Positions 32,801 to 52,522 of a stretch of DNA of 64,000 nucleotides are shown here, piece by piece. Numbering within the stretch: position 1 is the first letter of the stretch; each line of letters starts with the position of its first letter. Both the position numbers and the translations under genes were made by a program. The notes beneath the pieces were generated by a model. That model ran no database searches, had not been told where the DNA came from, and saw only the letters and a program-made list of their open reading frames with translations. Origin of the DNA: Marinobacter sp. F3R11 (GTDB lineage Bacteria; Pseudomonadota; Gammaproteobacteria; Pseudomonadales; Oleiphilaceae); assembly GCF_003318275.1 (NCBI RefSeq), contig NZ_QOCH01000015.1, positions 788,516 through 852,515 on the forward strand, read 5' to 3'.

Positions 32801-32883
32801 TTGCTTCATAGAAATAAATCGCGAGGAGTGGCCACCACGTGTCCACCGAGGACGAGGATAAATTCAAGTGGAAAGGTGTGCCT

Positions 32884-33957: not shown

Positions 33958-33961
33958 CACC

Positions 33962-34156: not shown

Positions 34157-34190
34157 TCAGAATGATCAAGAATGAGAGTATCTTCAGGTA

Positions 34191-34221
34191 AAAAAAAGCC
34201 GGGGTTTCCCCGGCTTTTTTT
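34191..34221. terminator. Bidirectional terminator inside the element
   Basis: GCCGGGG-TTT-CCCCGGC (34198-34214) is flanked by A8 and T7. It ends the toxin-antitoxin-like transcript on the minus strand. Confidence 0.9.
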
Positions 34222-34236
34222 ACTATAGGAGGCGTC

Positions 34237-34599: not shown

Positions 34600-34681
34600 G
34601 GTAATCTCCCGTCGCGAGGCCACAAAGCTCTTGCCGGCTCTTGGACCTTCATAGCGACCTAATGAGATGGGTTTCTCTCTT

Positions 34682-34963
34682 TTACGCGTACTTTATGTAA
34701 ATACGCTTTTCGTCTTCGTTAGGCACATACGCAGTTTTAACAACCACGTCACCGTCTTTAAGAATGAAAACGATTTTTAGTTGTCGACCACTGTCGGTTT
34801 CAGCAATAAACCACTGAGTAGGTGGATCTGACTTGTGATCTTCTCTCATGTCTTCCAGAAACTTACCCGTACGATTCGCGATACACTCCTGAACTTCCTC
34901 CAAGCTGACTCCATGCCTTTGAGCCAACTTTTGCTTAACCTGCGGTGAACACTTTAGCCCCAT
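34682..34963 (-). CDS. Toxin-like small protein of a type II toxin-antitoxin pair
   Basis: 93 residues. N-terminal SPQVKQKLAQRHGVSLEEVQECIANR, then DPPTQWFIAETDSGRQLKIVFI and TAYVPNEDEKRIY. It resembles small BrnT/DUF4258-like proteins encoded before a CopG-type antitoxin (relatives are sometimes labelled ADP-ribosyl-dinitrogen reductase hydrolase). The predicted fold is one helix pair plus a curved sheet, as in RelE-like RNases. Toxin activity is inferred from gene order and size, not shown. Confidence 0.65.
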   Translation of the reverse strand: MGLKCSPQVKQKLAQRHGVSLEEVQECIANRTGKFLEDMREDHKSDPPTQWFIAETDSGRQLKIVFILKDGDVVVKTAYVPNEDEKRIYIKYA

Positions 34964-35840: not shown

Positions 35841-38800
35841 TTACGGTCTCGTTCCGGAAGCTGGTTTCCCCAACTGTTTGGGGAGTATGCGATAAGCGTC
35901 TTCAACCCAGTCGCAAAGCAATCGGCGACTATCTCTCGGATCAATCATGTTCTGCACGCCAAATTTTTCAGCTGTGCGGAACGGTGAAGCGATTTTTTCC
36001 ATATTCAGACTGATTCGCTCCAGTTCCCGCTCCCGGTTTTCCACCACGTTAAGCTGGGAGCTAAAGGCTGCTTCAATGCCACCACGTGACGGCAGTGAAC
36101 CCCAGGTACCCGACGGCCAGGACCAGCTGGGCAATGCCCGATGGCGATTGACCATACCAGCACCACCTACTCCAAAGATTCTGCGCAGAATCAGCTCTGC
36201 CTGGGGTACCCGGGCCTGATAGATGGCAGAAATTGCCCTGACCCCGTGGCGTATCGTACCTCGACGCTCCGCTGCAGAGCCTATGGAAACGCCACCCTGA
36301 TCGGTCAAGCTGACAACAGGCAGATGGAAGGTATCGCAAAGGTCCACCAAACGAGTAACAGCCTGTGCTCCCTCTACAGTCATGGTGACACCCTTGAGCG
36401 GGTTGGTCGCGAGAATACCCACCGGATAACCATTTAACCGGCCGAGAGCCGTCACAGTAGAACCACCATATTCAGCATAAGTGAAGACAGAACCCCGATC
36501 GAAGACCGCCTCAAGAATGGCATTGATGTCATAAGGTTTTCTGGAGTTCCTGGGGATAGCACTAAGCAGTTGTTCCTCTCGCCGTCCCACAGGATCATCG
36601 CAAACCTGCCGGGGAGGCAGTTCGTCCACACTCCGCGGCAAATAGGACAAAAACTTCCGAATAACATCGAAGGCCTCCCGCTCTGTGTCGACCAGGCGTT
36701 CAACCACCCCGCTTTCCGCATGAATTCCGGCACCACCCAGCTCTTCCAAGGTCAGATCTTCACCCGTACTGGCTTTTACTATTGGGGGGCCGGCGGTAAA
36801 TGCCTGGCCGATGCCCCGGACCATTACAGCGAGGTGCGACATCGCGAGCCTGGCGGCACCGAGCCCTACAACTGGCCCTAACGCTGCGGCAACAACTGGC
36901 ACTAGTGAGAGATTATCAACAACCGCATCCCAACCCGGGTTGATGGGGACATAATGAAAGCCACGTTCGAGCGCCATCTTGACACTACCACCGCCGGAAG
37001 CGCCGTCGAGCAATCGTACGACCGGCAAGCGCATATCCCTGGCGTAGGTTTCGAGGAAGATCTGCTTACCGTGAATCGCGGCATCACCCGAACTCGCCCG
37101 CAACGTAAAGTCATCGATTCCAACAGTCACTTTGCGTCCATTGAGGCGCACAGTGCCACCGATAAAATTGGCGGGTTTTAGGTTGATCAGGTTGCCCTGT
37201 TCGTCGTATTCGGCAAACCCTGTAAGCGCCCCGACCTCTGTAAATGTGCCTTCGTCGGCCAGGTCCTCGACGCGCTCGCGGGCGGTCAGTTTTCCTTTGG
37301 CTTTTTGCTTACTGACTTTGTCCTTGCCGCCCAGCTGTTGGGCCATCGCGAAACGCCGCTGGCTCTCTTCAACTTCGGCGCCCCAGCCTGCGTCCTGCTC
37401 GTCGAATAGTGGAGGAGAAACTGTTCTTTCGTAGTTCGCTAATGAGTCGGCGTCACCGGGCTCAATAGTGGCAAGAATGTCGTTCTCCCTGATGACATCA
37501 CCAACCTGAGCCGTAACTGCACTTACCCGGCCGCTGTATGCAGCCCGGACAGACTGCTCCATTTTCATGGCTTCGATCACCATGAGCGGCTGCCCCTGCT
37601 GGACAAGATCCCCGATTTCGACATCGACAGAAATGATCATACCCTCCATGGGTGCATGGATGGCGTGGCCAGTATCGAAGCCCATCGTGAGAGCCGAGGC
37701 ATCCTGACGACTTTGGTGCTTATCACAACTCCCGTCTTCGAGCGCAGGGAAAGCTAGTGGAGAAAAGGTACTAATAGCCGTTTGTATCTCCTGCTGATGA
37801 GCAGCAATGAAGTAGGTGCTGTACTCCCCCCGAAGAAATGCTGGATTACTCAGAATTGCTCCAAGGAGCGGGATGTTTGTAGGCAGACCGGTGATGTGGA
37901 ATTCGCGCAGGGCTCCGGTGAGGGTTGCGGCAGCAGAGAGAAAACTCTCACCCCGCGCAATCACTTTCGCGACCAACGAATCGTATCGGTGACTGGCATT
38001 GTAACCGGGGTAACCATAGCTATCGACACGCACTCCCGGACCGGAGGGAGGGATAAACCCGGTAATAAGGCCGGATCTGGGCCTGACTATTCCGTCTGAA
38101 GTGAACTCTTCAAGGTTGACCCGAGCCTGTATCGCAAAGCCATTGGCTGGCGGCGCCGACTCCAACCCCAATTCAGAAAGAGATTTCCCCGCAGCGATTC
38201 TGATTTGAGTCTGCACCAGATCAACACCGGTAATTTCCTCAGTAACTGTATGTTCAACCTGAAGCCGGGGGTTTGCCTCCATGAACCAGAAACCACCCTC
38301 GGAGACCAGAAACTCAAAGGTGCCAATATTTTCATAACGAGCCTGGGATGCCAGTATTTGCGCTGCTTCAAGTATGTGCTCACGCATCGACTGAGGGAGT
38401 ACAGGGCTTGGCGCGATTTCCAACAGCTTCTGGTGGCGCCTTTGCACCGTGCAATCCCGTTCCCAGAGGTGAGTGACCCGGCCAGAACCATCGCCAACAA
38501 TTTGCACTTCGATATGGCGTGCGTTATGAAGCAGCTTTTCCACATACAGGTCGCCGTTACCGAATGCCTGCTCTGCTTCGGACTGGCAGCGCAGATAGGC
38601 ATCATCGAGCTCCTCGATTGACTTCACGACCCTCATTCCTCGGCCACCGCCCCCGGCTATGGCTTTCAGTATAACCGCCCCGCCGTTTTCCAGTGCGAAG
38701 GCCTTGGCCTGCCTAAGCGAAGTCGGGCCAGATGTACCCGGCATAACCGGTATACCTGACTCAGAAGCCGCCTTCAGCGCATTAACTTTATTGCCAAACA

Positions 38801-39128
38801 GATCCAGTGTTTCCGATCGTGGGCCTATGAAGCGGAGGCCTGCATCCTCACAATGCCTTGCAAAGCCACTATTCTCACTCAGAAATCCATACCCTGGATG
38901 GATGGCCCAACAACCTTTCTCCAGCGCAGCCGAAATAATGGCTCTACCATCCAGATAGGCAGCAGAACCTTCACGGGGTAGCTCACAAGCTTCATCCGCG
39001 AAACTGGTATGCAGTGCCTCGGCGTCATCACCCGCATATACCGCAATCGTCTGATACCCCAGTTGACGTGCAGCCCGGATTATCCGAATGGCGATTTCGC
39101 CACGATTGGCGACCAGAATCCTCTCCAT
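35841..39128 (-). CDS. Single-chain biotin-dependent acyl-CoA carboxylase (LCC-like)
   Basis: 1095 residues combine all carboxylase functions. Biotin carboxylase occupies about 1-445 (ATP loop AGGGGRGMRVV; EANPRLQVEHTVTEEITGVD). A biotinyl domain has Lys522 in EAMKMEQSV. A carboxyltransferase half spans about 590-1095 (SGGGSVKMALERG; LVDLCDTFHLPVVSLTDQGG). This architecture matches the single-polypeptide long-chain acyl-CoA carboxylases known from mycobacteria, which accept acyl-CoAs of varied length. The substrate here is unknown. It is the last gene of a three-gene minus-strand operon, 59 bp after an acyl-CoA ligase. Confidence 0.9.
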   Translation of the reverse strand: MERILVANRGEIAIRIIRAARQLGYQTIAVYAGDDAEALHTSFADEACELPREGSAAYLDGRAIISAALEKGCWAIHPGYGFLSENSGFARHCEDAGLRFIGPRSETLDLFGNKVNALKAASESGIPVMPGTSGPTSLRQAKAFALENGGAVILKAIAGGGGRGMRVVKSIEELDDAYLRCQSEAEQAFGNGDLYVEKLLHNARHIEVQIVGDGSGRVTHLWERDCTVQRRHQKLLEIAPSPVLPQSMREHILEAAQILASQARYENIGTFEFLVSEGGFWFMEANPRLQVEHTVTEEITGVDLVQTQIRIAAGKSLSELGLESAPPANGFAIQARVNLEEFTSDGIVRPRSGLITGFIPPSGPGVRVDSYGYPGYNASHRYDSLVAKVIARGESFLSAAATLTGALREFHITGLPTNIPLLGAILSNPAFLRGEYSTYFIAAHQQEIQTAISTFSPLAFPALEDGSCDKHQSRQDASALTMGFDTGHAIHAPMEGMIISVDVEIGDLVQQGQPLMVIEAMKMEQSVRAAYSGRVSAVTAQVGDVIRENDILATIEPGDADSLANYERTVSPPLFDEQDAGWGAEVEESQRRFAMAQQLGGKDKVSKQKAKGKLTARERVEDLADEGTFTEVGALTGFAEYDEQGNLINLKPANFIGGTVRLNGRKVTVGIDDFTLRASSGDAAIHGKQIFLETYARDMRLPVVRLLDGASGGGSVKMALERGFHYVPINPGWDAVVDNLSLVPVVAAALGPVVGLGAARLAMSHLAVMVRGIGQAFTAGPPIVKASTGEDLTLEELGGAGIHAESGVVERLVDTEREAFDVIRKFLSYLPRSVDELPPRQVCDDPVGRREEQLLSAIPRNSRKPYDINAILEAVFDRGSVFTYAEYGGSTVTALGRLNGYPVGILATNPLKGVTMTVEGAQAVTRLVDLCDTFHLPVVSLTDQGGVSIGSAAERRGTIRHGVRAISAIYQARVPQAELILRRIFGVGGAGMVNRHRALPSWSWPSGTWGSLPSRGGIEAAFSSQLNVVENRERELERISLNMEKIASPFRTAEKFGVQNMIDPRDSRRLLCDWVEDAYRILPKQLGKPASGTRP

Positions 39129-39187
39129 CTGCTTCCACCTTTGTCTTGTTGTTCAGTATTCGGGCCTACTACCAGTCTGCAATGCCT

Positions 39188-40897
39188 TCAGCGCGGCTCT
39201 TGCTCCGTAATCATCTGCTTCAGTTTGTATTTCTCTATTTTGTTGGTAGGCGTTACTGGCAAAGTATCCACGATGCGAATATGGCGGGGGCGCATATATT
39301 TCGGCATGTGATCCGCAGCAAAGGTAGCAATGTCGTTCTCTGTGGTACTCCCCGCTTCCTTGAGCTCAATGAATACAGCGATATCATCCTCATTCCCTTC
39401 CTGTGCTGGCATGGGCACAGCAGCCACGGCCCGAACTTCCGGATGATCCACGAGCAGGGATTCCACCTCGTAGGAAGAAACGTTTTCGCCACGCACCCGG
39501 AAATAGCCCCCCATTCGGTCAACAAACCGAAAAGTGCCGTCATCTCCTTCAACCACGGCATCTCCGGTATGGAACCAGAGATTTCTCCAGGCTTTGAGTG
39601 TGGCTTCAGGCTTATTAAGATATTGCTGAAGCAGTAGTCCCGGGAACCTTGGCCGGAATGCCAGCTGTCCAACCTGGCCTGGCGGCAGACGGTTGTCGTC
39701 CTCGTCCAGAATGGCAACATCCACCAACGGTGATGGTCTGCCCATAAAGCCCGCCGGCAGATCTTGTTCACCACTAACAAGCAGTCGGCCGGCTGCTTTG
39801 GCAGAAGCCCGGAGTTCGTCTTTCGACAACCCCTTGTAGAGTTCCGGCTGCGTGCCTGGCTGATCACCCAGCTCGTCAATGATCGCCATAAAACCGGCGC
39901 CGGACTCCGTCTGACCAAATCCGCAAGTAACAAAGTCAAACCCGAAACGCTTGGCGACTTCGTAGTGGTTAGCCGGAAGCGGCTGCATATGCACCTTATT
40001 GAGGGTGTTATTTCGGTCGTCGTCCGAGGGGGGTGCCGACATCAGCCATGGAATCATGACGTCTAACAGAATTCCGGTGCTTGCTCCGCACTCGCGGATC
40101 CGGGACCAGTATTCCGAGGGACTGAACCGGTTCCAGAGGCCCACGGTATTGCCCTTCCAAACCGCTTTAACCAAGAGCGCATAGGCACCACCAACGTGAT
40201 ACATCGGCAAATCGCAATACACCACATCTTCCGGGGTCCACTGGCTGCGGCCCGCAAAGGCATACTGATTGATCCACCGGAATGGAAGCAAAACACCCTT
40301 GGCAGGCCCAGTAGTTCCGGAGGTATAGATAATGGTCGCCGGATCAAAAGGACCCAGCCCGGGATCAGCCAGTGAGATTTCAGAAGCCGCAAGGGTATCA
40401 AGCCGATGCACTGTTGAATTTGGCAATTCAACATCAGACTCACCAGCCTCTCCGGAGGTATCCGGCCCAAATACTACATGGCACGGAGCAATATCCGACC
40501 CTATTTTGTGTAATTCCGAACCAAACGAAGGATCAGTAATCAGTACAGGAGCTGCAGTATCGCTGATCTGATAGCTAAGCAGCTTGCCCTTCAGGTTGAA
40601 GTTGATCGGCGCATAGATCGCCCCGACCTGCCAACAGGCAAACATGGAAATCGCAGCCAACAGCGAATTACTGGTGAGTACGCTGACGGGCTGGCCTCGC
40701 TGGATGCCCAATGAAGCCAGCCCACAAGCAATATTCAGACTTCGGTCATACATTTCTCTAAAGGTCAGGCTTTCGCCCGTTTCCCCGTAGTAGATGAATA
40801 CCTTGTCGCCGTTTTCGAAGGCATGCCTTTTAAGCTGATAGAGCGGTACATCCCCTTCGGACACCATCTGATCAAAAATTTCTTGTGGTTGTTTCAT
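39188..40897 (-). CDS. Acyl-CoA ligase (class I AMP-forming)
   Basis: 569 residues of the ANL superfamily. The P-loop is IIYTSGTTGPAKGVL near residue 192. The adenylate-binding region follows (TCGFGQTESG), then WFHTGDAVVEGDDG with the hinge in RFVDRMGGYFRVRGENVSSYEVE, and the C-terminal catalytic Lys in TNKIEKYKLK. It activates a carboxylic acid to its CoA thioester, presumably the substrate of the flanking carboxylases. It lies 46 bp after the second carboxylase gene and 59 bp before the first. The closest family feel is crotonobetaine/short-to-medium-chain acyl-CoA synthetases. Confidence 0.88.
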   Translation of the reverse strand: MKQPQEIFDQMVSEGDVPLYQLKRHAFENGDKVFIYYGETGESLTFREMYDRSLNIACGLASLGIQRGQPVSVLTSNSLLAAISMFACWQVGAIYAPINFNLKGKLLSYQISDTAAPVLITDPSFGSELHKIGSDIAPCHVVFGPDTSGEAGESDVELPNSTVHRLDTLAASEISLADPGLGPFDPATIIYTSGTTGPAKGVLLPFRWINQYAFAGRSQWTPEDVVYCDLPMYHVGGAYALLVKAVWKGNTVGLWNRFSPSEYWSRIRECGASTGILLDVMIPWLMSAPPSDDDRNNTLNKVHMQPLPANHYEVAKRFGFDFVTCGFGQTESGAGFMAIIDELGDQPGTQPELYKGLSKDELRASAKAAGRLLVSGEQDLPAGFMGRPSPLVDVAILDEDDNRLPPGQVGQLAFRPRFPGLLLQQYLNKPEATLKAWRNLWFHTGDAVVEGDDGTFRFVDRMGGYFRVRGENVSSYEVESLLVDHPEVRAVAAVPMPAQEGNEDDIAVFIELKEAGSTTENDIATFAADHMPKYMRPRHIRIVDTLPVTPTNKIEKYKLKQMITEQEPR

Positions 40898-40943
40898 GCA
40901 GGCCCTCCTTTTGTTTTTGTTACTCTCAGCTTTCCTGGCGAAG

Positions 40944-43900
40944 TTACCAGGTGTCTACCATCGGACGGCGACGTCCGATGCGGGGCCCTGGTTTCCTTGC
41001 CGACTTGAGACCACGGAGGATCCAGTTGCGAGTATCAGCCGGGTCGATAACCGCATCTATTTCCAGAGATACAGCCATACTCAGGGCCTTGCCTTTTTCG
41101 TACTGCTCCGCCACAAGCTTTTCGAACATCGCCTTCTGGGCAGCTTCGTCACCGGCATTAGCGATTTCGTTGCGATAACCAAGACGAACCGCACCCTCAA
41201 GCCCCATCCCACCAAACTCACCGGTGGGCCAGGCCACGTTAAAGAAAGGCGCATGGAACGAACCCGCTGTCATACCCATGGCCCCAAGGCCGTAGCCTTT
41301 CCGCAGAACAACGGAAAACACCGGGATCTTGAGGCTGGCGGCGGTGACAAACATCCGAGTGGTATGTCGGACCAGACCAGTTTTCTCAGCCTCAGGGCCT
41401 ACCATGAAGCCCGGGGTATCACAGAGACTGATCAGTGGTACATCATAGGCATCACATAGCTGCATGAAGCGGGACGCCTTGTCGGCACCATTCGCACAGA
41501 TTGCACCACCCAGGTGGCGCGGGTCATTAGCGATCAGGCCAATCGGCCGCCCTTCAATACGGGCGAAAGCAGTTACCATACCGGGCGTAAACTCCGGCCG
41601 GAGTTCAAGGTAGCTATTGCTATCGACCAGCGTTCGAATCAGTGACCGGATGTCATAGGAGCGTAGCCGGTTCTCCGGAATGCTGGACCGAAGAAGCCGC
41701 TGATCTGCACAGGTCCACTCCGGCAATTTGCCCTGGAAGTACGACATGATCTGACGAGCAACCTTTGCCGCCTCCCGCTCGTCCTCAACCAGGCAATCCA
41801 CGACGCCATTGGCAACCTGGACAGACATGGGACCGACCTCTTCCGCAGAATAGACTCCCAGACCGCCGCCTTCGATCATTGCCGGCCCGGCCATACCCAG
41901 GCTGGCGTTCCTTGTTGCAATCAACAGGTCGCTGGAACCCGCAAATACGGCGTTACCGGCGAAACAGCGTCCTGAAACAATCCCGATACGGGGCGCCAAC
42001 GCGGTCATCCTTGCATACTGCAGGAAGCTGGACTGGTCGAGCCCGGCCACCTTGGTGGCGTTATCTGTATCCCCCGGACGACCACCACCGCCTTCCGCAA
42101 AAAATATAACCGGCAACTGCTGCTCTTCAGCCACTTGGAGCACACGGTCTGTTTTTTTGTGGTTCATGGTTCCCTGGGTCCCGGCCAACACAGTGTAGTC
42201 GTAGGCCAAAACAGCACACCGAGCCTGGTCCTCATCAAACATTTGACCATTCACCGCTCCTAAACCGGCAACCAGACCATCCGCAGGGGTCGAACGCATG
42301 AGGTCATCAACCGAGCGTCGGCGCCGCTGCGCAGCAAAGGTGAGAGCACCGTACTCAATAAAGCTACCGGAGTCGCAGATGTTGTCGATGTTCTCGCGAG
42401 CAGTGAGCATGCCCAGCTTGTGGCGCTTCGCCACTGCATCAGGTCGGACTTCATCGAGAGTCAGACGATGGCGCTCCATAGTTTCCGCCAGATCCGGACG
42501 GATATAATCAAGATCAATTTGTTGTTCAGTTACCTCTTCATCCTGGCCGGTGTCGCCAGGCTCAATATAGGCGATGGCCTGGCCTTCGTTTACATAATCA
42601 CCCTCAGCCAATGGCAGCCCCCGGATAATGCCGGCTACCGGCGCCTTGATCTCATGTTCCATTTTCATGGCTTCGAGAATGGCCAATGTTTGCCCCTTGG
42701 CCACACTGTCACCTTCACCCACCAAGGTCGTCACGAGCTGCCCCTGCATGGGAGCAGAAGCCGACTCAGAGCCTTCCGGCGCCTCTTGTATGGCCTCGGT
42801 TTGGTTCACCCCCCCGGACGCGCCGGAGCTACAAAAAAGCTGCGGATGATCCTGCTGTCCCTCGACCACAAGGTCAGCCATGTGGTCATCAACGAAACGT
42901 GTGTATATGCAGTTTTCGGCGACGTCTTCGCGACAGAGGAGCGACTGCAGGAAGGAAGCGTTAGTCTTTACTCCCTCAACCCGGAACTGACAAAGGGCAC
43001 GATAGGCCTTACGGACCGCCTGCTTATAATCCGCTGCCCGACTGTGAACAATCAACTTCGCCAGCAACGAATCAAAGTGCGGACTTGTGGTGTATCCCCG
43101 GTATCCGAAAGTATCGACACGAAGCCCCGGCCCAGAGGGCGGTTCGAATGTCTCCAGGGTGCCGCCACTGGGGCGGGTTGTGCCGTCGGCGTCCATAGAC
43201 TCCATATTCACTCGGCACTGTATGGCATAACCATTCGGCTCAGCTATTTCAGCTTGAGTGAGGTTGAGGTCTGCCAGACTCGCCCCCCCCAGAACAGCAA
43301 TCTGGGACTGGACAAGGTCAACACCGGTAATCTCTTCAGTAACAGTGTGCTCCACCTGAAGCCGGGGATTCGCTTCAATAAAGAAAAAGTCTTTACCGTT
43401 TTCATCCACCAGAAATTCAAATGTACCCAGTCCGGCATAGTTGACGTGTCTGGCCATTCGTAATGCCGCATCCAGCAGGTATTCTCGGGTAGTGGCCGCC
43501 AATGTCGGACTGGGAGCAACTTCAACCAGCTTCTGATTACGTCGCTGTAGACTGCACTCCCTCTCCCACAAGTGAATGGCATTACCACGGCCATCACCGA
43601 GTACCTGCACCTCAATGTGCCGGGCTTTCCGGACCAGGCGTTCGACGTACAATCCATCGTCTCCGAATGCCGCTGCGGCTTCACGGGCACACGCCTTGTA
43701 AGCCTCCTCAAGGTTCTCGCCCGGCAAAACAATCCTCATCCCGCGACCGCCGCCACCGCAAATGGCCTTGATAACTACGGCCACATCACTATCCAGGCTT
43801 CCAACAAAATCTCTGGTTTCAGCCAGTGACGTACGACCCTTGGTGCCCAGAACAACTGGAACCTCACAGTGTTCTGCAAGCGTCCTGGCGGCCGCCTTGT

Positions 43901-44243
43901 CTCCAAGCATTGCAAGTGTTTCCGGATCAGGCCCGATAAAGGTGATGTTGCTGCTGGCACATTGGCGAGCCAGGTCGGCGTTCTCACTCAGGAACCCGTA
44001 ACCCGGATGCAGAGCGTCCGCCGAAACCTTCCTGGCAACTTCAACAATTGCATCGATATCCAGATATGCACGGGCGCCTATTCCAGGCAGGAGTACCGTC
44101 TGATCAGCATAAGCGAGATGGAGGGAGTTTCGGTCATCCTCAGAGTATATGGCCACGGTTTCCAACCCCATCTCGGCAGCAGCCCGGGCAATACGAATAG
44201 CAATTTCACCACGATTGGCAATCAGCAACTTATTGAACTTCAC
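40944..44243 (-). CDS. Second single-chain biotin-dependent acyl-CoA carboxylase (LCC-like)
   Basis: 1099 residues, same domain order as its neighbour: biotin carboxylase (about 1-455, GGGGRGMRIV; EANPRLQVEHTVTEEITG), biotinyl Lys527 in EAMKMEHEIKAP, carboxyltransferase (about 600-1099, FFAEGGGGRPGDTDN; SLCDTPGFMVGPEAEKTG). The two carboxylases are homologous throughout but clearly diverged, above all in the carboxyltransferase half, which sets acyl preference. First gene of the minus-strand operon, divergent from a TetR gene; the shared 240-bp region carries operator-like palindromes. Confidence 0.9.
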   Translation of the reverse strand: MKFNKLLIANRGEIAIRIARAAAEMGLETVAIYSEDDRNSLHLAYADQTVLLPGIGARAYLDIDAIVEVARKVSADALHPGYGFLSENADLARQCASSNITFIGPDPETLAMLGDKAAARTLAEHCEVPVVLGTKGRTSLAETRDFVGSLDSDVAVVIKAICGGGGRGMRIVLPGENLEEAYKACAREAAAAFGDDGLYVERLVRKARHIEVQVLGDGRGNAIHLWERECSLQRRNQKLVEVAPSPTLAATTREYLLDAALRMARHVNYAGLGTFEFLVDENGKDFFFIEANPRLQVEHTVTEEITGVDLVQSQIAVLGGASLADLNLTQAEIAEPNGYAIQCRVNMESMDADGTTRPSGGTLETFEPPSGPGLRVDTFGYRGYTTSPHFDSLLAKLIVHSRAADYKQAVRKAYRALCQFRVEGVKTNASFLQSLLCREDVAENCIYTRFVDDHMADLVVEGQQDHPQLFCSSGASGGVNQTEAIQEAPEGSESASAPMQGQLVTTLVGEGDSVAKGQTLAILEAMKMEHEIKAPVAGIIRGLPLAEGDYVNEGQAIAYIEPGDTGQDEEVTEQQIDLDYIRPDLAETMERHRLTLDEVRPDAVAKRHKLGMLTARENIDNICDSGSFIEYGALTFAAQRRRRSVDDLMRSTPADGLVAGLGAVNGQMFDEDQARCAVLAYDYTVLAGTQGTMNHKKTDRVLQVAEEQQLPVIFFAEGGGGRPGDTDNATKVAGLDQSSFLQYARMTALAPRIGIVSGRCFAGNAVFAGSSDLLIATRNASLGMAGPAMIEGGGLGVYSAEEVGPMSVQVANGVVDCLVEDEREAAKVARQIMSYFQGKLPEWTCADQRLLRSSIPENRLRSYDIRSLIRTLVDSNSYLELRPEFTPGMVTAFARIEGRPIGLIANDPRHLGGAICANGADKASRFMQLCDAYDVPLISLCDTPGFMVGPEAEKTGLVRHTTRMFVTAASLKIPVFSVVLRKGYGLGAMGMTAGSFHAPFFNVAWPTGEFGGMGLEGAVRLGYRNEIANAGDEAAQKAMFEKLVAEQYEKGKALSMAVSLEIDAVIDPADTRNWILRGLKSARKPGPRIGRRRPMVDTW

Positions 44244-44378
44244 AGGATGACCTCTTCAGATTATTGGCTTTGTTATCAGATCGGTAGCAATGATCAAGGA
44301 ACTGTTCACACGTGTCAGATTCCCTGAAATTTCTGAGCCCGCCTGCTTGACGACCTGCGGAATAGCTACCATCCTATT

Positions 44379-44432
44379 ACTAACTTACACGTCAGTCAGT
44401 TTTAGTCAAAAAAAACTAACTTGCAAGTAAGT
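44379..44432. promoter_or_regulatory. Two operator-like palindromes between the carboxylase operon and tetR
   Basis: Site 1 (44379-44400) is a 22-bp imperfect palindrome with half-sites of the form ACTNACTNAC and GTNAGTNAGT. Site 2 (44415-44432) reads ACTAACTTGCAAGTAAGT, an 18-bp palindrome matching its own reverse complement at 16 positions. Both share ACTNACT/AGTNAGT ends and lie in the divergent promoter region, as expected for TetR autoregulation. The binding assignment is inferred. Confidence 0.65.
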
Positions 44433-44483
44433 CGGTAATTGGCAATGATAAGACCCATACCGTTAATCGCTACCGGAGGCACT

Positions 44484-45119
44484 ATGCCTACAACTGAATC
44501 AACAACTGTGCGCACCAAAGCCTGTGATACCCGGGTACGCATCCTGGAAGTCGCAAGGCGCCTGTTCATTACGCGGGGGGTCGATGCGGTCAGTTACGGC
44601 GATATTGCCAAGGAAGTCGGTTCAACCCGGGCCAACCTGCACTATCACTTCGGCAACAAGGCTGAGTTGGTCAAAGAGGTATTTGCCGACACCTTCGAAG
44701 ACGTGCGCAAGAAGCTTGAAAGCATATGGCTGAAGCCGGGGCTTTCCTTGGAGGAACGGATTGACCTTCTATTTGAAGATGCACAGGAGCGGTTTCACGA
44801 ATTCAATCAGGCGGGCGAGCAGAAGACTCCATGGAGCCTGTCCTCCCGTGCGAGGTTTGACTTCAGCTCAGTAGATACCGAAGTGATGGCAGGTATAGGC
44901 GAAATGTCCCGCTATTTCGAGGAATGCGTGACACACGGTGTGCAGCTGGCTATTGGTGCCGGTGAATACCGGAGTGACATGCCGGTTAAGGACGTGGTTC
45001 TTATGATTACCCCGCTGTGGTATTTCGGTTCACCCATCACCCAGGTCTCCGGGATAAAAAGACTGAAAAACCATTACGCAGCTACAAAGAGAATGATAAA
45101 AGCTGCCTACGGTGCCTGA
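44484..45119 (+). CDS. TetR family transcriptional regulator
   Basis: 211 residues from MPTTESTTVRTKACDTRVR (ATG 44484 with GGAGG). The helix-turn-helix is in RILEVARRLFITRGVDAVSYGDIAKEVGSTRANLHYHFGNKAELV. The ligand domain is not diagnostic. It is divergent from the carboxylase-ligase operon and directly upstream of the ABC importer genes, so it probably controls both directions in response to an acyl-CoA or related ligand. Confidence 0.9.
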   Translation: MPTTESTTVRTKACDTRVRILEVARRLFITRGVDAVSYGDIAKEVGSTRANLHYHFGNKAELVKEVFADTFEDVRKKLESIWLKPGLSLEERIDLLFEDAQERFHEFNQAGEQKTPWSLSSRARFDFSSVDTEVMAGIGEMSRYFEECVTHGVQLAIGAGEYRSDMPVKDVVLMITPLWYFGSPITQVSGIKRLKNHYAATKRMIKAAYGA

Positions 45120-45198
45120 ATGCCCTGAACGTTTGCTCGGCACTACTCTACGAAACAAAAACAACAGCCCGAACTTAGTTCGGATGCGTGGAGGAAAC

Positions 45199-46272
45199 AT
45201 GTTAGTTGCATCAAATAACACGGCTGTGGGCAATAGCACCCGGCTTGCAGAGCGCTCAACGGGCGACGCACAACCTGTCCCTGGCGAAGTAACACCCATC
45301 CTCGATGTGCGCAACTTGAGTATTTCCTTCCGGGGCCGTGATGGGGTAACCCATGTTACTCACAACGTCTCGTTTACCGTCGCCCCCGGAGAACGGGTCG
45401 GTGTTGTCGGAGAAAGCGGCTGTGGCAAGTCCGTTACTGGCCTTTCCCTCCTGCGTCTGCTGCCAGAGCGCACGGCCATCATCGACGGTGAAATCCGGTT
45501 TGATGGACGTGATCTCATGTCCATGCGCCCCAAAGAGATCCGTGCTATCCGGGGGCGAGACATCAGCATGATATTCCAGGAGCCGATGACCGCACTGGAC
45601 CCGGTTTTCACCGTAGGCCAGCAACTGATTGAGACACTTCGTGCGCACTACCCGGTCTCCCAGGCAGAAGCTAGAGAGCAAGCTGTTCAAGCGCTCAAGG
45701 ATGTAGGGATTCCTTCTCCGGAAACGCGGGTTGATGAATACCCTCACCAGTTCTCGGGAGGGATGCGCCAGCGTGTCATGATCGCAATGGCCCTGATCTG
45801 TAAACCGAAACTGATTATTGCAGATGAGCCCACTACGGCACTGGATGTCACGGTCCAGGCGCAAATTATCGATCTGCTGACAGAACTGAGTGAAAACACT
45901 GGTACTGCATTGTTATTCATCACACACGATCTCGGTGTTGTTGCTGAAACCTGCAGCCGGATGATCACCATGTATGCCGGAGAAGTTGTTGAGAGTTCAC
46001 CGGTAGATGATGCTCTCCGCCGCCCTGGCCACCCCTACACTTCCGGACTGTTGCGTTCGCTACCCCGGCTCAGCGACCGTGGCAGCCGCCTCCCTTTCAT
46101 TCCTGGCAGAGTACCCTCGCCACACGCCCTGCCTGAAGGATGCAGTTTCCAGGACCGATGCCCGCATTCTGGTGACGGTTGTGAACGGTATCAGGCTGTG
46201 GTCGAAATTGATCCGACACGGCATGCCCGCTGCCACAAGGCAAAAGAATTGAACCTGGAGGGGGCAGTCTAA
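45199..46272 (+). CDS. ABC transporter ATPase, peptide/opine/nickel type (DppD/OppD-like)
   Basis: 357 residues from [20 protein letters not shown] (ATG 45199 with GGAGG). Walker A is GESGCGKS, the signature [16 protein letters not shown], Walker [13 protein letters not shown], and H-loop FITHDLG. The C-terminal oligopeptide-transporter extension has [17 protein letters not shown], the Cys-rich region that in this subfamily can hold an iron-sulfur cluster. Its stop overlaps the next ATG (TAATG). Confidence 0.92.
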
Positions 46273-47279
46273 TGAGCACTACTGTCAGTCAATCCAAGCA
46301 GCAGCACCCACAGAATATTGTGACCGTTGACAACCTGAAGATTCACTTTCCGCTCAAAGGCGGACAAACCGTGAAAGCGGTGGATGGGGTGAGTTTTCAG
46401 ATACGCGCTGGTGAAACGCTGGGAATCATTGGAGAGTCCGGTTCCGGAAAATCCACAGTGGGGCGGGCACTGGTTGGACTATTAAAGCCTACCGAGGGGA
46501 CACTTCGGTATGGAGAGACAGACATTTCAGCGCTGTCAGCAGCAGAGTATAAACGGCTGCGCAAGAACTATCAGATTATTTTCCAGGATCCTCACGCGGC
46601 TCTGAATCCCCGTATGACCATTCTGCAGAGTCTGGTTGAACCGATGGAGATTCAGAATGAAGGCACCCGTGAATCCAGGCGTAAAACGGCACTGGCATCT
46701 CTGGAACGGGCGGGGCTGGCCCCGGAGATAGCTCTGCGCTACCCACATGAGCTTTCAGGGGGACAAAAACAACGCATTAATATCGCACGAGCATTGACCG
46801 TCCACCCTCAATTTATCGTTTGCGACGAGGTAGTGGCCGCGCTGGACGTATCGGTGCGCGGCTCAATACTGAACCTCTTTGCGGATCTTCAGGAAGAATT
46901 GGGACTGACCTACGCATTTATTACCCACGACATTTCGGTGGTCGCCCATGTCAGTCAACGGGTGGCCGTCATGTACCTCGGCAACATGATGGAACTGGGC
47001 CCCACCGACTCTGTCATTGAACAACCTCTACATCCCTACACCCAGGCGTTGCTGTCTGCGGAACCCCGCCCAGTGCCCAGTGATATGCGAGAAGACCGAC
47101 GCATACAACTCCAGGGAGAAATACCAAGCCCGGCCTCACCACCGAGCGGGTGCCGCTTCCGGACCCGCTGCCCGTACGCCACCGACAGGTGTAAGGCCGA
47201 TGCCCCTGACTGGCGCGAGGTCGCCCCCGAACATTGGGTTTCCTGCCACTACACGACTCCATCAGGCGTCGAGCAATAG
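46272..47279 (+). CDS. ABC transporter ATPase, peptide/opine/nickel type (DppF/OppF-like)
   Basis: 335 residues. Walker A GESGSGKS, signature ELSGGQKQRINIARAL, Walker B-region FIVCDEVVAALDVSVRG. In the last the usual DEPTSALD appears as DEVVAALD: the catalytic Glu is kept, but Pro-Thr is Val-Val. The C-terminal extension carries CRFRTRCPYATDRCK. It pairs with the preceding ATPase as a heterodimer, coupled by a one-base overlap. Confidence 0.92.
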   Translation: MSTTVSQSKQQHPQNIVTVDNLKIHFPLKGGQTVKAVDGVSFQIRAGETLGIIGESGSGKSTVGRALVGLLKPTEGTLRYGETDISALSAAEYKRLRKNYQIIFQDPHAALNPRMTILQSLVEPMEIQNEGTRESRRKTALASLERAGLAPEIALRYPHELSGGQKQRINIARALTVHPQFIVCDEVVAALDVSVRGSILNLFADLQEELGLTYAFITHDISVVAHVSQRVAVMYLGNMMELGPTDSVIEQPLHPYTQALLSAEPRPVPSDMREDRRIQLQGEIPSPASPPSGCRFRTRCPYATDRCKADAPDWREVAPEHWVSCHYTTPSGVEQ

Positions 47280-47339
47280 CTGTGACAACCCAAACAGCCC
47301 ACTAAACCAAAGAACAATCACAAAAAGGAAGTATCCCCT

Positions 47340-48923
47340 ATGCAAAACAAAGATAAATCTGTAGCTGTAAAAGGCAACGGCTTCACTCTTGGCCGCCGGG
47401 AATTCCTGAGCCTGATGGCGGGGACCGCAGCCGTCGCAAGTATGGCCGGCCCTTCAGCACTGCTGGCCAGCCTTAAAGATAATGGCGGCATTCTTAACAT
47501 CGGTGCCCCAGCTAACCCCTCAAGCCTGGACCCCGCAACCGGCGGCGCCGGATCAGACCACATTTTCCTGTTCCCGGTTTACTCCACCTTGGTTGAGTGG
47601 GAATACGACACTCTCCGGGCTCTCCCGGGTCTGGCAAAGAGCTGGGAATACCCTGACCCCAAAACGCTCGTCCTGAATATTCGCGAAGGCGTTACCTTCC
47701 ATGACGGTACAACTCTTGATGGCGAAGCGGTCAAGTTCAATCTGGACCGGAACCGGACCGATCCCCGTTCCAATATTCGCTCTGACCTTTCTTCCGTAGA
47801 AAGCGTTGAAGTCAGCGCTCCCTACCAGGTCACACTGAATCTCAAAGCACCCGACACGTCGCTACCCCTGATTCTGTCTGACCGGGCCGGGATGATGGTC
47901 TCCCCAAGCGCTATCCGGAAATTCGGGGAAGATTCTGACCGCAATCCTGTCGGTGCGGGACCGATGAAGTTTGTCGAGTGGAACGATGGAGACCGCATTG
48001 TCCTTGAACGCAACCCTGACTACTGGAGAGAGGAGCGCCCCTTGGTGGACGGGATAAGCTTCCGGCTCATCACAGACAGCTCCACTCGCCTGCGCTCAGT
48101 TATGTCTGGCCAGAACGACTTGGCTTATCACCTCGACGGGCGTCAAAAGCCCCTGATTGAGCGTAGCGGATCCGTCATGGGCGTGTCAGGTTCCACGGTT
48201 TATTGCTACCAGATATACCTGAACCAAGCAAAAGGCCTCCTGAAGAATATCAAAGTTCGCCAGGCACTGAACTACGCCATCGACCGTGAAGCTTTGATTC
48301 GGGCATCAATGCATGGTGCAGGTGAGCCTGCCTATATGAATCTGCCATCGTCGCACTGGGCCTATGATGCCAACGTGGCCAAGCTTTATGATTATGATCC
48401 GGAGAAAGCAAGAAAGCTTCTTGAAGAAGCAGGTTACCCTGACGGGATTGACCTCGATATACGTGCGTACAATGATCAGGGATCGGTACAGCGTCTGGAA
48501 ATTATTATGGGCATGTTTGCCAAAGCCGGTATTCGTGGCCGATTCAAAACTGGCACCATTTCAGACATGTCCTCTGCTTATTTTGCACGTGGCGAAGGTG
48601 ACTGCCTCATTTCTGCATGGACTGGCCGTCCAGATCCTTCATTAACCTATGCGCTGCTGTATGCCGGCGATTCGTACTTCAATGCCGGAAAGGTTGAACC
48701 ACCCGAAGGGTTGATGGACGCCATTCGGGCCTCCCGCAGTACCAACGATACTGAGGAACGGAAGAAAGCCTTCGCCACAGTGCAGCGCATTGTTATGGAA
48801 AATGCGCTGGCTGTTCCGCTCGCCTTCCGTCAGGACATCATGGCGCACACGGAGAAGGTCAAGAACCTGCAAACCAACCTGCTTGGCAAGCCCAAGTTCG
48901 AACACGTTTATCTGGAAAGCTGA
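47340..48923 (+). CDS. ABC transporter solute-binding protein (family 5), Tat-exported
   Basis: 527 residues with an N-terminal twin-arginine signal (LGRREFLSLMAGTAAVASMAG), so it is probably folded and exported by Tat. The body matches SBP_bac_5: SLDPATGGAGSDHIFLFPVYSTL, FHDGTTLDGEAVKFNLDR, GAGPMKFVEWNDGDRIVLERNPDYW, VRQALNYAIDREAL. Family members bind peptides, opines, glutathione, nickel or sugars; the ligand is not evident here. It is followed by a strong intercistronic hairpin. Confidence 0.92.
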   Translation: MQNKDKSVAVKGNGFTLGRREFLSLMAGTAAVASMAGPSALLASLKDNGGILNIGAPANPSSLDPATGGAGSDHIFLFPVYSTLVEWEYDTLRALPGLAKSWEYPDPKTLVLNIREGVTFHDGTTLDGEAVKFNLDRNRTDPRSNIRSDLSSVESVEVSAPYQVTLNLKAPDTSLPLILSDRAGMMVSPSAIRKFGEDSDRNPVGAGPMKFVEWNDGDRIVLERNPDYWREERPLVDGISFRLITDSSTRLRSVMSGQNDLAYHLDGRQKPLIERSGSVMGVSGSTVYCYQIYLNQAKGLLKNIKVRQALNYAIDREALIRASMHGAGEPAYMNLPSSHWAYDANVAKLYDYDPEKARKLLEEAGYPDGIDLDIRAYNDQGSVQRLEIIMGMFAKAGIRGRFKTGTISDMSSAYFARGEGDCLISAWTGRPDPSLTYALLYAGDSYFNAGKVEPPEGLMDAIRASRSTNDTEERKKAFATVQRIVMENALAVPLAFRQDIMAHTEKVKNLQTNLLGKPKFEHVYLES

Positions 48924-48970: not shown

Positions 48971-49002
48971 CGGTGTCGGCCATATTTCACGACGGACTGA
49001 TT

Positions 49003-49962
49003 ATGATTTCTCGGAGCAAACAGCTTATGTTGCTGAATCGCTTTGTACAGGCGATTCCCATCATGATTCTTGCCACCTTTCTGGTGTTCTCATTACTGCA
49101 ACTGGTGCCAGGCGACGTTGCAATTACAATTGCTGGTGAAAATGCCAGTGAAGAACGAATTCAGGAGATTCGTGAGCTTTACGGCCTGAATCAGCCGTTT
49201 CTGGTCCAGTATGGAAACTGGTTACTGAACGCAATTCAGGGTGATTTCGGTGATTCACTGCTTAGCGGCGAACCCGTACTTGAAACCATTTTCCGGGTAT
49301 TTCCCAACACACTGTTTGTTGTGGTTTATGCCGTCATCCTCTCCGTTGTTATTGGCGTACCACTGGGCATTATGGCGTCAAGCCGGCCGAACTCGAAACT
49401 GGACGGCGCGATCATGGGAGCCTCGTCCCTTGGAGTCGCAGTTCCGAACTTCTGGCTGGGGATGGTCCTGGTTTCGGTATTCGCGCTGACTTGGAACTGG
49501 TTTCCCGCAACAGGTTTTACAAGCCCGAGTGACGGCCTCAGCTCGGCTATCTGGTTTGCCACCTTGCCCGCCATTGCTCTCTGCACCAACGGTATCGCAG
49601 AAGTCGCCCGCCAGCTGAGGAGCTCCCTGGTTGAAATTCACAGCTCACAATATGTCCGCACGCTACACGCCAAGGGGCTATCGCCGGTTGCCATCCTATG
49701 GAAACACGGACTCAAGAACGTCAGCGTAAACCTGCTGACCGTAATCAGCCTGCTATTCAACAAAGCGTTAGCGGCGACTGTAGTCGTTGAGACGGTATTC
49801 GCCATTCCAGGGATGGGAAACACCATTGTGAAAGCTGTACTGGAAGGCGATTTCCCCGTGGTTCAGGGTGCGGTTCTGGCAATGGTCGTTTCCGTCATCC
49901 TGGTAAACCTCGTGACTGATCTTACCTACACTATTCTGGACCCAAGGATTCAACAGGTATGA
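49003..49962 (+). CDS. ABC transporter permease, DppB-like
   Basis: About 320 residues from MISRSKQLMLLNRFVQAI (ATG 49003; a GTG at 48973 is an alternative). It has six predicted TM segments, the first ending in the family motif LVPGDVA. The C-terminal EAA-type loop reads RTLHAKGLSPVAILWKHGLKN, which contacts the ATPases. It overlaps the next permease gene by ATGA. Confidence 0.92.
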   Translation: MISRSKQLMLLNRFVQAIPIMILATFLVFSLLQLVPGDVAITIAGENASEERIQEIRELYGLNQPFLVQYGNWLLNAIQGDFGDSLLSGEPVLETIFRVFPNTLFVVVYAVILSVVIGVPLGIMASSRPNSKLDGAIMGASSLGVAVPNFWLGMVLVSVFALTWNWFPATGFTSPSDGLSSAIWFATLPAIALCTNGIAEVARQLRSSLVEIHSSQYVRTLHAKGLSPVAILWKHGLKNVSVNLLTVISLLFNKALAATVVVETVFAIPGMGNTIVKAVLEGDFPVVQGAVLAMVVSVILVNLVTDLTYTILDPRIQQV

Positions 49963-50837
49963 CAACTCCCACTATGGAAATGGCGATCAGAGAAGATTCT
50001 CTTTTCAGCAAGTTCGGTCAATGGTGCCAGCGAGACAAACGTGGAGCAGTCAGTCTGCTGGTACTGATGATCATCATAGGAATCGCAATCTTCGCGCCGT
50101 GGATCGCGCCGCATTCACCAACAGAGCAGGATTTCAGCAAGATGCTGATGGCACCCAGCGCAGAACACTGGCTCGGTACCGATGACTTGGGACGAGATGT
50201 GCTCAGCCGCCTCATACACGGTACGTCCAAATCCGTTTACGCTGCGTTTCTGGCTGTGGGGGTATCTTTGCTGATTGGCGTACCGATTGGCCTGCTGGCC
50301 GGTTTTCTGGGCGGCTGGATCGATATTGGAATCAGCCGCGTGATTGATACGCTGCTTTCCTTTCCCGCGATCGTCTTGGCTGTAGCCGTCACCGGTGCCA
50401 TGGGCATAGGTTTGACCAACTCGATGATTTCAGTGGGGATCGTATTCTCACCTCACCTTGCGCGCCTGATACGAGCCAGGGCCCTGGTCATCCGGGAAGA
50501 ACTATATGTAGACGCAGCAAGGTGCTTCGGTGCGTCCACTATCCGATTACTGGTAAAGCACGTGACGCCAAATGCCATTCAGCCAGTTATTGTTCAGTGC
50601 ACGCTACTTCTGGCGCTCGCTCTGCTCGCCGAAGCAAGTCTCAGTTTCCTCGGACTTGGTGTACAGCCCCCTGACCCCAGCTGGGGGCAGATGCTTGCCC
50701 GTGCCTATATGTATATGGAAATAACGCCTGAACAGATGTACGCACCCGGATTGATGATCATGGTTACCGCATTGACCTTCAATACGCTGGGAGAATCGCT
50801 GAGAGTTGCCCTCGACCCAACCATGAAAGGCCTTTGA
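49959..50837 (+). CDS. ABC transporter permease, DppC-like
   Basis: 292 residues with six predicted TM segments. The family signature APSAEHWLGTDDLGRDVLSRLIHGT lies near residues 60-88, and the EAA loop is YVDAARCFGASTIRLLVKHV. It ends LRVALDPTMKGL. It partners the DppB-like permease and overlaps it by 4 bp. The next gene, an acyl-CoA ligase, starts 39 bp downstream. Confidence 0.93.
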   Translation: MTTPTMEMAIREDSLFSKFGQWCQRDKRGAVSLLVLMIIIGIAIFAPWIAPHSPTEQDFSKMLMAPSAEHWLGTDDLGRDVLSRLIHGTSKSVYAAFLAVGVSLLIGVPIGLLAGFLGGWIDIGISRVIDTLLSFPAIVLAVAVTGAMGIGLTNSMISVGIVFSPHLARLIRARALVIREELYVDAARCFGASTIRLLVKHVTPNAIQPVIVQCTLLLALALLAEASLSFLGLGVQPPDPSWGQMLARAYMYMEITPEQMYAPGLMIMVTALTFNTLGESLRVALDPTMKGL

Positions 50838-50875
50838 TCCGGAATGAGTTCTACAACAACAAGGAGCAGAATGTT

Positions 50876-52522
50876 ATGAGTCTCCCGAACTCTCACTTTG
50901 CTGATGCGGCAAAAGACATCAAATACCGCAGTGGTGCCCGGCCAATGCATGATTACCTGCTTCTGAACGCTGAGGAGGCACCAGAACAGGTCGCATATAT
51001 TTTTTATGGCCGCGAGATCTCCTGGAAAGAGCTGGCAGACTCTAGCAGAAGACTTGCGGGATTCCTGCGGAAGAAGGGAATTGCCAAAGGAGATCAAATC
51101 GGCCTCTATCTCCAGAACTGTCCGCAATACGTGATAGCTCATTACGCAATTCAGATGCTGGGGGCTGTCATTACGCCTCTTAATCCCCTATACAAAAGCG
51201 CAGAAGTTGAATACCAGCTTGAAAATGCTGGAGCCAGGGCTGTTATCTGTGGAACGGACCTGTACCCCATGGTTGAGGCTGTCAGAGACAAACTGTCCCA
51301 GCTGGATCTGGTCGTCACTACAAGCTATGCAGACTACCTCCCCGGTTTGCCGACTTTGCCAGTCCCTGACGACCTCGCCTTGGCACATGCGACCCCTGAT
51401 AACACCTTTGATCTGGTTTCCGCAATTGATCGGGCCCTACCCATCAACCGGCCCGAGTCCGTCGATTTTGACAACGATATTGCCCTGATGACGTTTACAT
51501 CCGGCACTACAGGACGCCCGAAAGGTGCGATGTTGCCGGTAGGAGCCGCAACGTTCAAAACAGCCGCCCTGTTCCAGTCCAATGGTCTTGAGCAGGATAG
51601 CACTGCACTCGCGATTGCTCCTTTCTGCCATATCGCAGGTATGTGCCTGGGTGTCTATGCAGGGATATATGGGCGTTGGACAACCGTGATCCTGCCAAGG
51701 TTCGATCCGGAAACAACTGCTCAGGCCCTTGAAAAATACAAAGTCGACATGTGGTATAGCATCGCCCCGATGAACCGGGCTATCCTCAGTTTGCCAGACA
51801 TCCAGTCCCGCGACCTGAGTTCCCTGCGATTTAACCCTTCCACCAGCTTCGGCATTCCGGTTACCAAAAGCCTTGCCGATGAATGGAAGGCGCTCACCGG
51901 TTGCCAGATGTACGAGGCATCTTACGGCCTGAGCGAAACCCACACCATGGATACCTACATGCCTCGTGACGCTATCGTCTGGGGTAGCTGTGGCAAGCCT
52001 ATGCCGGGAAATGACATCCGTATCGTCGACATCAAAACCGGAAACGAGCTGCCCCCGGGTCAGTCCGGCGAAATTGCCGTCGGCAACAACTATGTATTCA
52101 AGGGCTACAAAAATCGCCGCGATGCGACTAATGAAACTCTGAAAAACGGATGGGTCTACACGGGCGACGTAGGTTACTTGGATGAAAACGGCTACCTGTT
52201 CTTCACCGGCCGAATCAAAGAGATGATCAAGTGCTCCGGGTACAGCGTTTTCCCAGAAGACGTTGAAGCACTGATGCTGAACCATCCTGCTATCACCCAG
52301 TCTGTGGCGGTAGGTGTACCTGACGAAAACAGGGGTGAAAGCGTGAAGCTCTTCGTGGTCCTCAAGCCTGGCTATGCCAGCGAGGTATCGGAACAGGACA
52401 TCATCGACTGGGCCAAGGACAACATGGCCGCTTACAAGTACCCTCGCTACGTCGAGTTCCGCGACTCCCTTCCCACGACAAGTGCCGGCAAGGTACTGCG
52501 CCGCCTTTTAAAAGATGAATAG
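50876..52522 (+). CDS. Acyl-CoA ligase (AMP-forming), copy 1 of a tandem pair
   Basis: 548 residues from MSLPNSHFADAAKDIKYR (ATG 50876 with AAGGAG). P-loop MTFTSGTTGRPKGAM, followed by YEASYGLSETHT, the hinge region YTGDVGYLDENGYLFFTGRIKEMIKCSGYSVFPEDVE, and catalytic Lys in TSAGKVLRRL. It resembles medium/long-chain fatty acyl-CoA synthetases. It is cotranscribed with the importer and closely related to the next gene, suggesting activation of the imported acid. Confidence 0.9.
   Translation: MSLPNSHFADAAKDIKYRSGARPMHDYLLLNAEEAPEQVAYIFYGREISWKELADSSRRLAGFLRKKGIAKGDQIGLYLQNCPQYVIAHYAIQMLGAVITPLNPLYKSAEVEYQLENAGARAVICGTDLYPMVEAVRDKLSQLDLVVTTSYADYLPGLPTLPVPDDLALAHATPDNTFDLVSAIDRALPINRPESVDFDNDIALMTFTSGTTGRPKGAMLPVGAATFKTAALFQSNGLEQDSTALAIAPFCHIAGMCLGVYAGIYGRWTTVILPRFDPETTAQALEKYKVDMWYSIAPMNRAILSLPDIQSRDLSSLRFNPSTSFGIPVTKSLADEWKALTGCQMYEASYGLSETHTMDTYMPRDAIVWGSCGKPMPGNDIRIVDIKTGNELPPGQSGEIAVGNNYVFKGYKNRRDATNETLKNGWVYTGDVGYLDENGYLFFTGRIKEMIKCSGYSVFPEDVEALMLNHPAITQSVAVGVPDENRGESVKLFVVLKPGYASEVSEQDIIDWAKDNMAAYKYPRYVEFRDSLPTTSAGKVLRRLLKDE

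Follow-up and report, generated by a model that had tools for sequence, protein, structure and literature searches.

A 64,000-nucleotide stretch of the Marinobacter sp. F3R11 genome, called the window throughout, encodes two single-chain acyl-CoA carboxylases, here named C1 and C2, on either side of an AMP-forming acyl-CoA ligase. C2, the ligase and C1 follow one another on the minus strand with intergenic gaps of 46 and 59 bp (Table 1), an operon-like run already recognized in the initial annotation, which had been made from the letters of this stretch. In both carboxylases Pfam places the N-terminal biotin carboxylase (BC) domain, the ATP-grasp domain (CPSase_L_D2), the C-terminal BC domain, Biotin_lipoyl and Carboxyl_trans, the carboxyltransferase (CT), in this order and above cut-off, and in the ligase AMP-binding and AMP-binding_C. 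The open reading frames (ORFs) of 1095 and 1099 residues agree with the polypeptides of about 1,095 residues that had been described, and the biotinyl lysines assigned to positions 522 of C1 and 527 of C2 are exact, because the motif EAMKM occupies residues 519-523 and 524-528. A GGGGRG loop and the stretch EANPRLQVEHTVTE are also common to the two proteins. Both frames are free of internal stops, and each protein has full-length relatives in other genomes.

Table 1. Genes and domains of the carboxylase cluster, in window coordinates.
Feature	Coordinates	Strand	Basis or remark
C1, candidate hybrid single-chain acyl-CoA carboxylase, 1095 aa	35841..39128	(-)	ORF, Pfam, relatives, identity break
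BC domain of C1 (residues 1-448), LCC type	37785..39128	(-)	BC trees, identity
Biotin carrier domain of C1 (residues 488-556), LCC-like	37461..37667	(-)	biotinyl Lys522 = 37563-37565
C1 residues about 565-580, end of LCC similarity	37389..37436	(-)	alignment
CT of C1 (residues 590-1075), kin of free-standing CTs	35904..37361	(-)	signatures DGASGGGSVK and WPSGTWGSLPSRGG
AMP-forming acyl-CoA ligase, 569 aa	39188..40897	(-)	Pfam; adjoins C1 in 16/19 named loci
C2, LCC family, 1099 aa, GTG start	40944..44243	(-)	4rcn/5fif matches, trees; biotinyl Lys527 = 42663-42665
TetR-family regulator	44439..45119	(+)	divergent from C2, 195-bp gap
OppD-type ABC ATPase	45112..46272	(+)	
OppF-type ABC ATPase	46272..47279	(+)	
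Family 5 solute-binding protein (SBP_bac_5)	47340..48923	(+)	
OppB-type permease	48973..49962	(+)	
OppC-type permease	49959..50837	(+)	
LigB, acyl-CoA ligase (AMP-binding)	50834..52522	(+)	
LigC, acyl-CoA ligase	52531..54186	(+)	62% identical to LigB; final gene of block conserved in L136/L137

Judged from both of its halves, C2 is a standard single-chain carboxylase of the long-chain acyl-CoA carboxylase (LCC) family. It matches the solved structure 4rcn at 1055 bits and the CT domain of 5fif at 612 bits, its BC and CT halves both lie within the LCC group in trees (the BC group also holds C1), and its architecture is that of LCCs, a single chain of about 1,090 residues running BC, carrier, CT. 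LCCs prefer long-chain acyl-CoAs and assemble as hexamers with swapped domains; the single-chain carboxylase domains in 5fif and 5h80 are from what we take to be YCC of D. radiodurans. Among 60 genus mates of the Marinobacter strain, 20 carry LCC matches at 53-82%, of which 18 are full length, one is in two pieces and one is partial. One genus-mate LCC (G035:C7:297715-300956) is split over two overlapping frames, possibly through a frameshift or sequencing error.

C1 resembles an LCC in its BC type and in its one-chain order of BC, carrier and CT, and departs from the family in the CT itself. Its best solved-structure match over the full length is again 4rcn (525 bits). In an alignment of 11 C1 and 21 LCC proteins, C1 is as close to LCCs as LCCs are to one another in BC (identity 0.518 for both comparisons) and nearly so in the carrier (0.376 against 0.381), and the CT falls to 0.281 between the groups against 0.594 within LCCs. 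The corresponding differences are 0.000 for BC (95% range -0.010 to 0.011), 0.006 for the carrier and 0.313 for CT (0.281-0.347), with ranges obtained by resampling alignment columns and not sequences. The break falls in the linker that follows the carrier, at about residues 565-580 of C1. The likeness of the front half does not reflect general BC conservation, because the BC of C1 is only 0.434 identical to that of methylcrotonyl-CoA carboxylase (MCC) and 0.426 to that of propionyl-CoA carboxylase (PCC).

Trees of the two halves give the same picture. They were built from 47 matched proteins, hand-picked from the rows available, in which each split enzyme is represented by the first BC and CT of one locus, true partners or not. 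Rows dropped from the wider set were near-identical ones (>88% in CT, >84% in BC), L148 and a fragment of L036. In the BC tree C1 and LCC form one clade (support 100/99) with short inner branches, and placing C1 with MCC or with PCC instead is rejected, at a cost of 202 log units either way (p-AU, from the approximately unbiased test, 0.0007 and 0.0001; quick tree of 46 rows, without row X_L114split). In the CT tree C1, LCC, PCC and MCC are each a clade at 99-100%. C1 and LCC stand there as separate 100/100 clades on stems of 2.42 and 2.1 changes per column, and nesting C1 with the LCC rows nearest to it in BC is rejected by 87 log units (p-AU 0.0004). The CT phylogeny that had been suggested as a check thus separates the two enzymes, and the outcome named as damaging at that time, a single known substrate type for both, was not found: the CT of C1 lies outside the LCC, PCC and MCC clades (no row of the trees was labelled geranyl-CoA carboxylase). 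The Brevibacterium locus (L041) pairs a typical C1 CT with a BC that, in a 101-row BC tree, joins actinobacterial LCCs and not the main group of C1 BCs (support 82); this is possibly a second exchange, although the 47-protein BC tree leaves its placement unresolved.

The kin of the C1 CT are found instead among free-standing proteins. Scored against solved structures, the CT half is closest to PCC-type beta subunits (216 bits for 1vrg, against 143 for 5fif and 125 for 4rcn). A fold search with its AlphaFold model also gives PCC-like neighbours, with the first 5fif chain at rank 36, and this is weak support because the model is mediocre (pLDDT 66.7, several loops below 50). By average identity the C1 CT is far nearer to a family of free-standing CTs (0.483) than to PCC (0.289), LCC (0.265) or MCC (0.262). 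A 78-row CT tree unites C1 (15 rows) with the free-standing CTs at 97-100%; its 'F' rows include the PCC-like L191-L193, three rows that the identity averages set apart. A careful 43-row tree, picked in even steps from the 78 rows and omitting MCC_L104, F_L153 and three PCC-like rows, supports the same clade at 100/100. Members have in common a longer glycine-rich loop, DGASGGGSVK in C1 and close variants in the free-standing CTs, and the motif WPS[GA]xWG[SA]LPxxGG; the distant member L153 departs in part from these signatures. A tail near P-[AS]-x-G-x-R-P is conserved at the C-terminus of most C1 proteins, and the free-standing CT of Tistrella ends alike.

This family is mostly unfused. A profile (A1) of 14 C1 CTs and one free-standing CT from Tistrella matches at E <= 1e-100 in 30 of 398 Pseudomonadota genomes, one match being the window's own. 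The other 29 matching genomes, out of 397, carry the CT in open frames 510-585 aa long, a length that leaves no room for a BC. Within the phylum of Actinomadura (G466) the profile matches in 11 of 296 genomes. Fused frames of about 1,100 aa account for two of these, one of them the query's own centre; another match lies in an 886-aa frame that has no BC match, a further one is truncated at a contig end, and at least three fall near PCC and outside the family. A BC gene occurs in only some of the 14 fetched regions and two plasmid loci with free-standing CTs, and none of the four members scanned received a curated NCBIfam name at cut-off.

The anatomy of C1 and C2, their kept motifs, the break within C1, the kinship of its CT and the linkage of the genes can all be read from the letters. 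From the identity break, the trees, and the CT kinship and signatures, C1 appears to carry an LCC-type BC and carrier joined in frame to a foreign CT drawn from a mostly free-standing family. The description of C1 and C2 as two diverged copies was therefore too simple: two intact carboxylases are present, and the halves of C1 have different histories. Calling both long-chain acyl-CoA carboxylases also went too far, since only the CT of C2 is of LCC type. C1 gives no sign of decay, since its BC and biotin motifs and its CT loops are kept, at the level of motifs and not of mapped catalytic residues; the loss of active-site residues in one copy, the other outcome named earlier as damaging, was at that level seen in neither. 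A frameshift suggested by odd letters near residue 990 of C1 was dismissed because orthologues read identically there.

One scan with six short patterns recovered C1 orthologues at 19 named loci, a list that is not a census for that reason. They belong to Marinobacter, Microbulbifer, Actinomadura, Amycolatopsis, Saccharopolyspora, Gordonia, Brevibacterium, Rubrivivax, Hydrogenophaga, Roseiarcus, Labilithrix, Alloalcanivorax and Desulforhopalus, with two metagenome-assembled genomes of unsettled genus; the best named matches are M. segnicrescens and M. daqiaonensis, in keeping with the genus suggested at first. The earlier mention of a Marinobacter trait is not supported: a C1 orthologue is present in 1 of 60 genus mates against LCCs in 20 of 60, and others come from a myxobacterium, from actinobacteria and from both beta- and alphaproteobacteria. 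None was found in the 368 other genomes of the class survey, where the four matches obtained are LCCs. On the Desulforhopalus singaporensis contig (L028), C1 is about 90% identical to that of Microbulbifer, far above the expectation between these phyla, which points to recent transfer or to contamination.

The ligase adjoins C1 at 16 of the 19 loci; it is absent in S. flava and A. hibisca, and L042 lies at a contig edge. Within the neighbourhoods seen, up to 10 kb either side and some shorter, Opp genes occur at six loci and an LCC at four (two Marinobacter species, Rubrivivax and Alloalcanivorax). The LCC and C1 meet in three arrangements: C2-ligase-C1 in Marinobacter, C2-C1-ligase in Alloalcanivorax, and divergent C2-LigB and C1-ligase pairs in Rubrivivax. 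All 11 genes from 35841 to 54186 occur in identical order in the M. daqiaonensis stretches L136 and L137; the flanks seen beyond them, of 9.0 kb and 5.6 kb, gave no match to any other ORF of the window. The M. segnicrescens stretch (L025) holds seven genes, C1 through the binding protein, and ends there. In three related genomes the C1-ligase-C2 run diverges from the TetR and Opp-importer genes. An ORF at 54283-55707 resembling FAE1/type III polyketide synthases adjoins the cluster and is unmatched in the M. daqiaonensis flank seen.

An LCC is also found apart from C1, as a separate protein in 11 of the 19 C1 genomes, including Brevibacterium G477 (G465 and G468 give partial matches). Among the 398 Pseudomonadota genomes the C1-type CT family occurs in 30, LCC in 41 (some in pieces) and both in 16. 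Counted by genus, LCC is present in 7 of 18 genera with the CT family against 16 of 194 without it (Fisher p 0.001), which is only a hint because genera are not independent. In G783 and G712, both of one genus, a free-standing CT adjoins an LCC; next come genes for a CoA-transferase III and a TctC receptor, and a gene for a sigma54-type regulator is divergent from them. Pfam identifies TctC and the regulator in G783, whereas in G712 they were recognized by similarity. The free-standing CT of G654 is accompanied by TctC, by a protein resembling succinyl-CoA ligase and by a BC, and an LCC is about 15 kb off on the same contig.

At seven annotated LCC loci, picked from the best plasmid matches, a CoA ligase adjoins the LCC in six and polar-solute importer genes lie near it in four. 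The importer is of Opp type in Haematobacter (L111), HAAT in Paracoccus (L112) and TRAP in Pseudosulfitobacter (L117); the Tistrella locus (L115) has a lone binding protein nearby, the Deinococcus LCC is adjoined only by a ligase, and in Rhodococcus genes for a CoA transferase and an MFS protein accompany the ligase. On the Rhodococcus opacus plasmid an LCC and a split CT/BC pair lie close together with ligase genes (L114 9524-18681); in this further two-carboxylase locus the split CT is placed, with moderate support, closest to the CTs of LCCs.

The interpretation that in our judgement probably holds is that C2 is an LCC, C1 is a hybrid LCC with an exchanged CT, and the 11 genes form a catabolic unit for import, activation and carboxylation. 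The Opp-type importer would bring in a soluble carboxylate, which may resemble a peptide or an amide, and the three AMP ligases would convert it to CoA thioesters. In biotin-dependent carboxylases BC charges biotin using bicarbonate and ATP, and CT transfers the carboxyl group to the acyl-CoA. In C1 and C2 biotin would be charged in similar BC domains. Because of their different CTs, the two enzymes may then carboxylate two different acyl-CoAs, which could be two substrates or belong to two steps. The earlier suggestion of two substrates or successive carboxylations thus stays plausible, given CTs of different lineages. We infer from the arrangement that the linked genes act in a single pathway supplied by the Opp operon, with the steps in this order; the substrate class is suggested solely by the importer types, and the reaction class of C1 and C2 is predicted from their families. 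Import, CoA activation and two carboxylations of a soluble carboxylate with differing specificity would most likely be the role of the cluster.

Several observations weigh against this interpretation. The direction of exchange is not settled, because a BC tree with an LCC-only clade is not rejected (p-AU 0.364). A sister placement of the C1 and LCC CTs is not rejected in a tree without the free-standing CTs (p-AU 0.176), and with them included the constraint costs 33.8 log units and is borderline (p-AU 0.0586). At 15 of the 19 C1 loci the neighbourhood seen, up to 10 kb, holds no LCC. In P. aeruginosa, where the LCC is reportedly connected with the utilization of selected carbon and nitrogen sources, neither a ligase nor an importer adjoins the gene. 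Eight further LCC loci (L130-L135, L138 and L139; seven of the same genus and one of the same order), taken as a control and searched with the window's proteins only, show no homologue of the window ligases and no complete importer.

The lack of a settled direction, together with the mostly free-standing state of the CT family, gives some room to an independent fusion, in which a BC-carrier alpha subunit, of a lineage from which LCC also arose, joined a free-standing CT and C1 was never an LCC. We consider this rather unlikely. C1 has the domain order of LCCs and is no more distant from them in BC and carrier than they are from each other, and all members of the C1 and LCC clade in BC (44 of 101 rows) are single-chain or pieces cut by the end of a fetched stretch, although these rows were gathered with single-chain queries and a free alpha subunit could have escaped. 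The composition of this clade is the reason that exchange within an LCC is favoured; C1 is best read as an LCC whose CT was replaced.

The function assigned to the cluster could also be illusory if a two-gene C1-ligase unit had simply landed beside an unrelated LCC-Opp unit. Such pairs often occur with neither LCC nor Opp genes in the neighbourhood seen, and some have a TetR gene of their own, but C1-ligase and LCC units meet in three genera in different orders, a free-standing CT meets an LCC in a fourth, and LCC tracks the CT family by genus, with the caveat on independence given above; a chance association is therefore unlikely. More doubtful still is the role first proposed, in which two long-chain carboxylases degrade branched or isoprenoid acids. 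MapLCC is said to prefer long chains, a wax-ester synthase-like gene lies at 30890-32308 and an MCC-type carboxyltransferase is encoded elsewhere in the genome. However, the genes conserved alongside encode an ABC importer of Opp type and two further ligases, several LCC relatives sit beside other polar-solute importers, the 11-gene block has no acyl-CoA dehydrogenase or hydratase among its genes, and the CT of C1 is outside the MCC clade. Plain duplication, in which C1 would be a paralogue of LCCs with a CT that evolved rapidly once its substrate had changed, draws on the sister placements that are not rejected or borderline and is very improbable, already strongly disfavoured by a C1 CT that is no nearer to LCC than to MCC or PCC, that has motifs and a 100/100 clade in common with the free-standing CTs, and that is rejected as nested among LCC CTs.

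The proposed hybrid C1 is what would be new relative to the LCC family; C2 is an ordinary member. A natural LCC with another family's CT joined in frame, distributed over several phyla, would show that these enzymes are modular in nature, and the C1 junction would mark a working joint for engineering. An importer, ligases and both carboxylases together would offer, as one unit, a route to the physiological substrate of LCCs. We advance more tentatively, as possible but not probable, the larger proposal that CT exchange created a second class of single-chain acyl-CoA carboxylase, and that an LCC together with this CT, fused as in C1 or free-standing, carboxylates twice in succession in a catabolic pathway not yet described, one that would break down an imported carboxylate of peptide- or amide-like kind. 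No description of the C1 architecture was found in the literature searched, in which the free-standing CT family was not sought by any name.

Elsewhere in the window, a tmRNA at 32397-32759 is directly followed by a 372-aa protein with weak similarity to the membrane effector of retron Ec48 and to PADLOC 2TM_IV, and then by CopG-antitoxin-like and DUF4258-like ORFs, both just below the Pfam cut-off. The interval 32397-34963 is a possible small defence or toxin-antitoxin patch at the tmRNA.

Among known systems, the solved single-chain enzymes (4rcn, 5fif/5h80) resemble C2 over its length and C1 in size, domain order, BC and carrier; the CT of C1 differs from theirs, lying outside the LCC clade and scoring highest with PCC-type beta subunits. 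The beta subunits of PCC (1vrg, 3n6r) and of MCC and geranyl-CoA carboxylase (3u9r, 5ikl) have PF01039 in common with C1, but PCC and MCC form clades of their own at the low identities given above. The CT of C1 is most like the free-standing CTs of about 520 aa, in identity, glycine-rich loop and WGSLP motif; these are separate polypeptides without BC or carrier, and the CT of C1 is fused. In PMC6491548 LCCs are placed in group III and termed rare, and substrate choice is attributed to CT. The same paper describes the S. erythraea multidomain carboxylase SACE_4237, which, like C1, combines BC, carrier and CT in one bacterial chain. As described there, it is about 200 kDa, with a central region and a eukaryote-type CT (group V), and a SACE_4237-like identity was rejected for C1, which, like C2, is a chain of about 1,100 aa without the central region.

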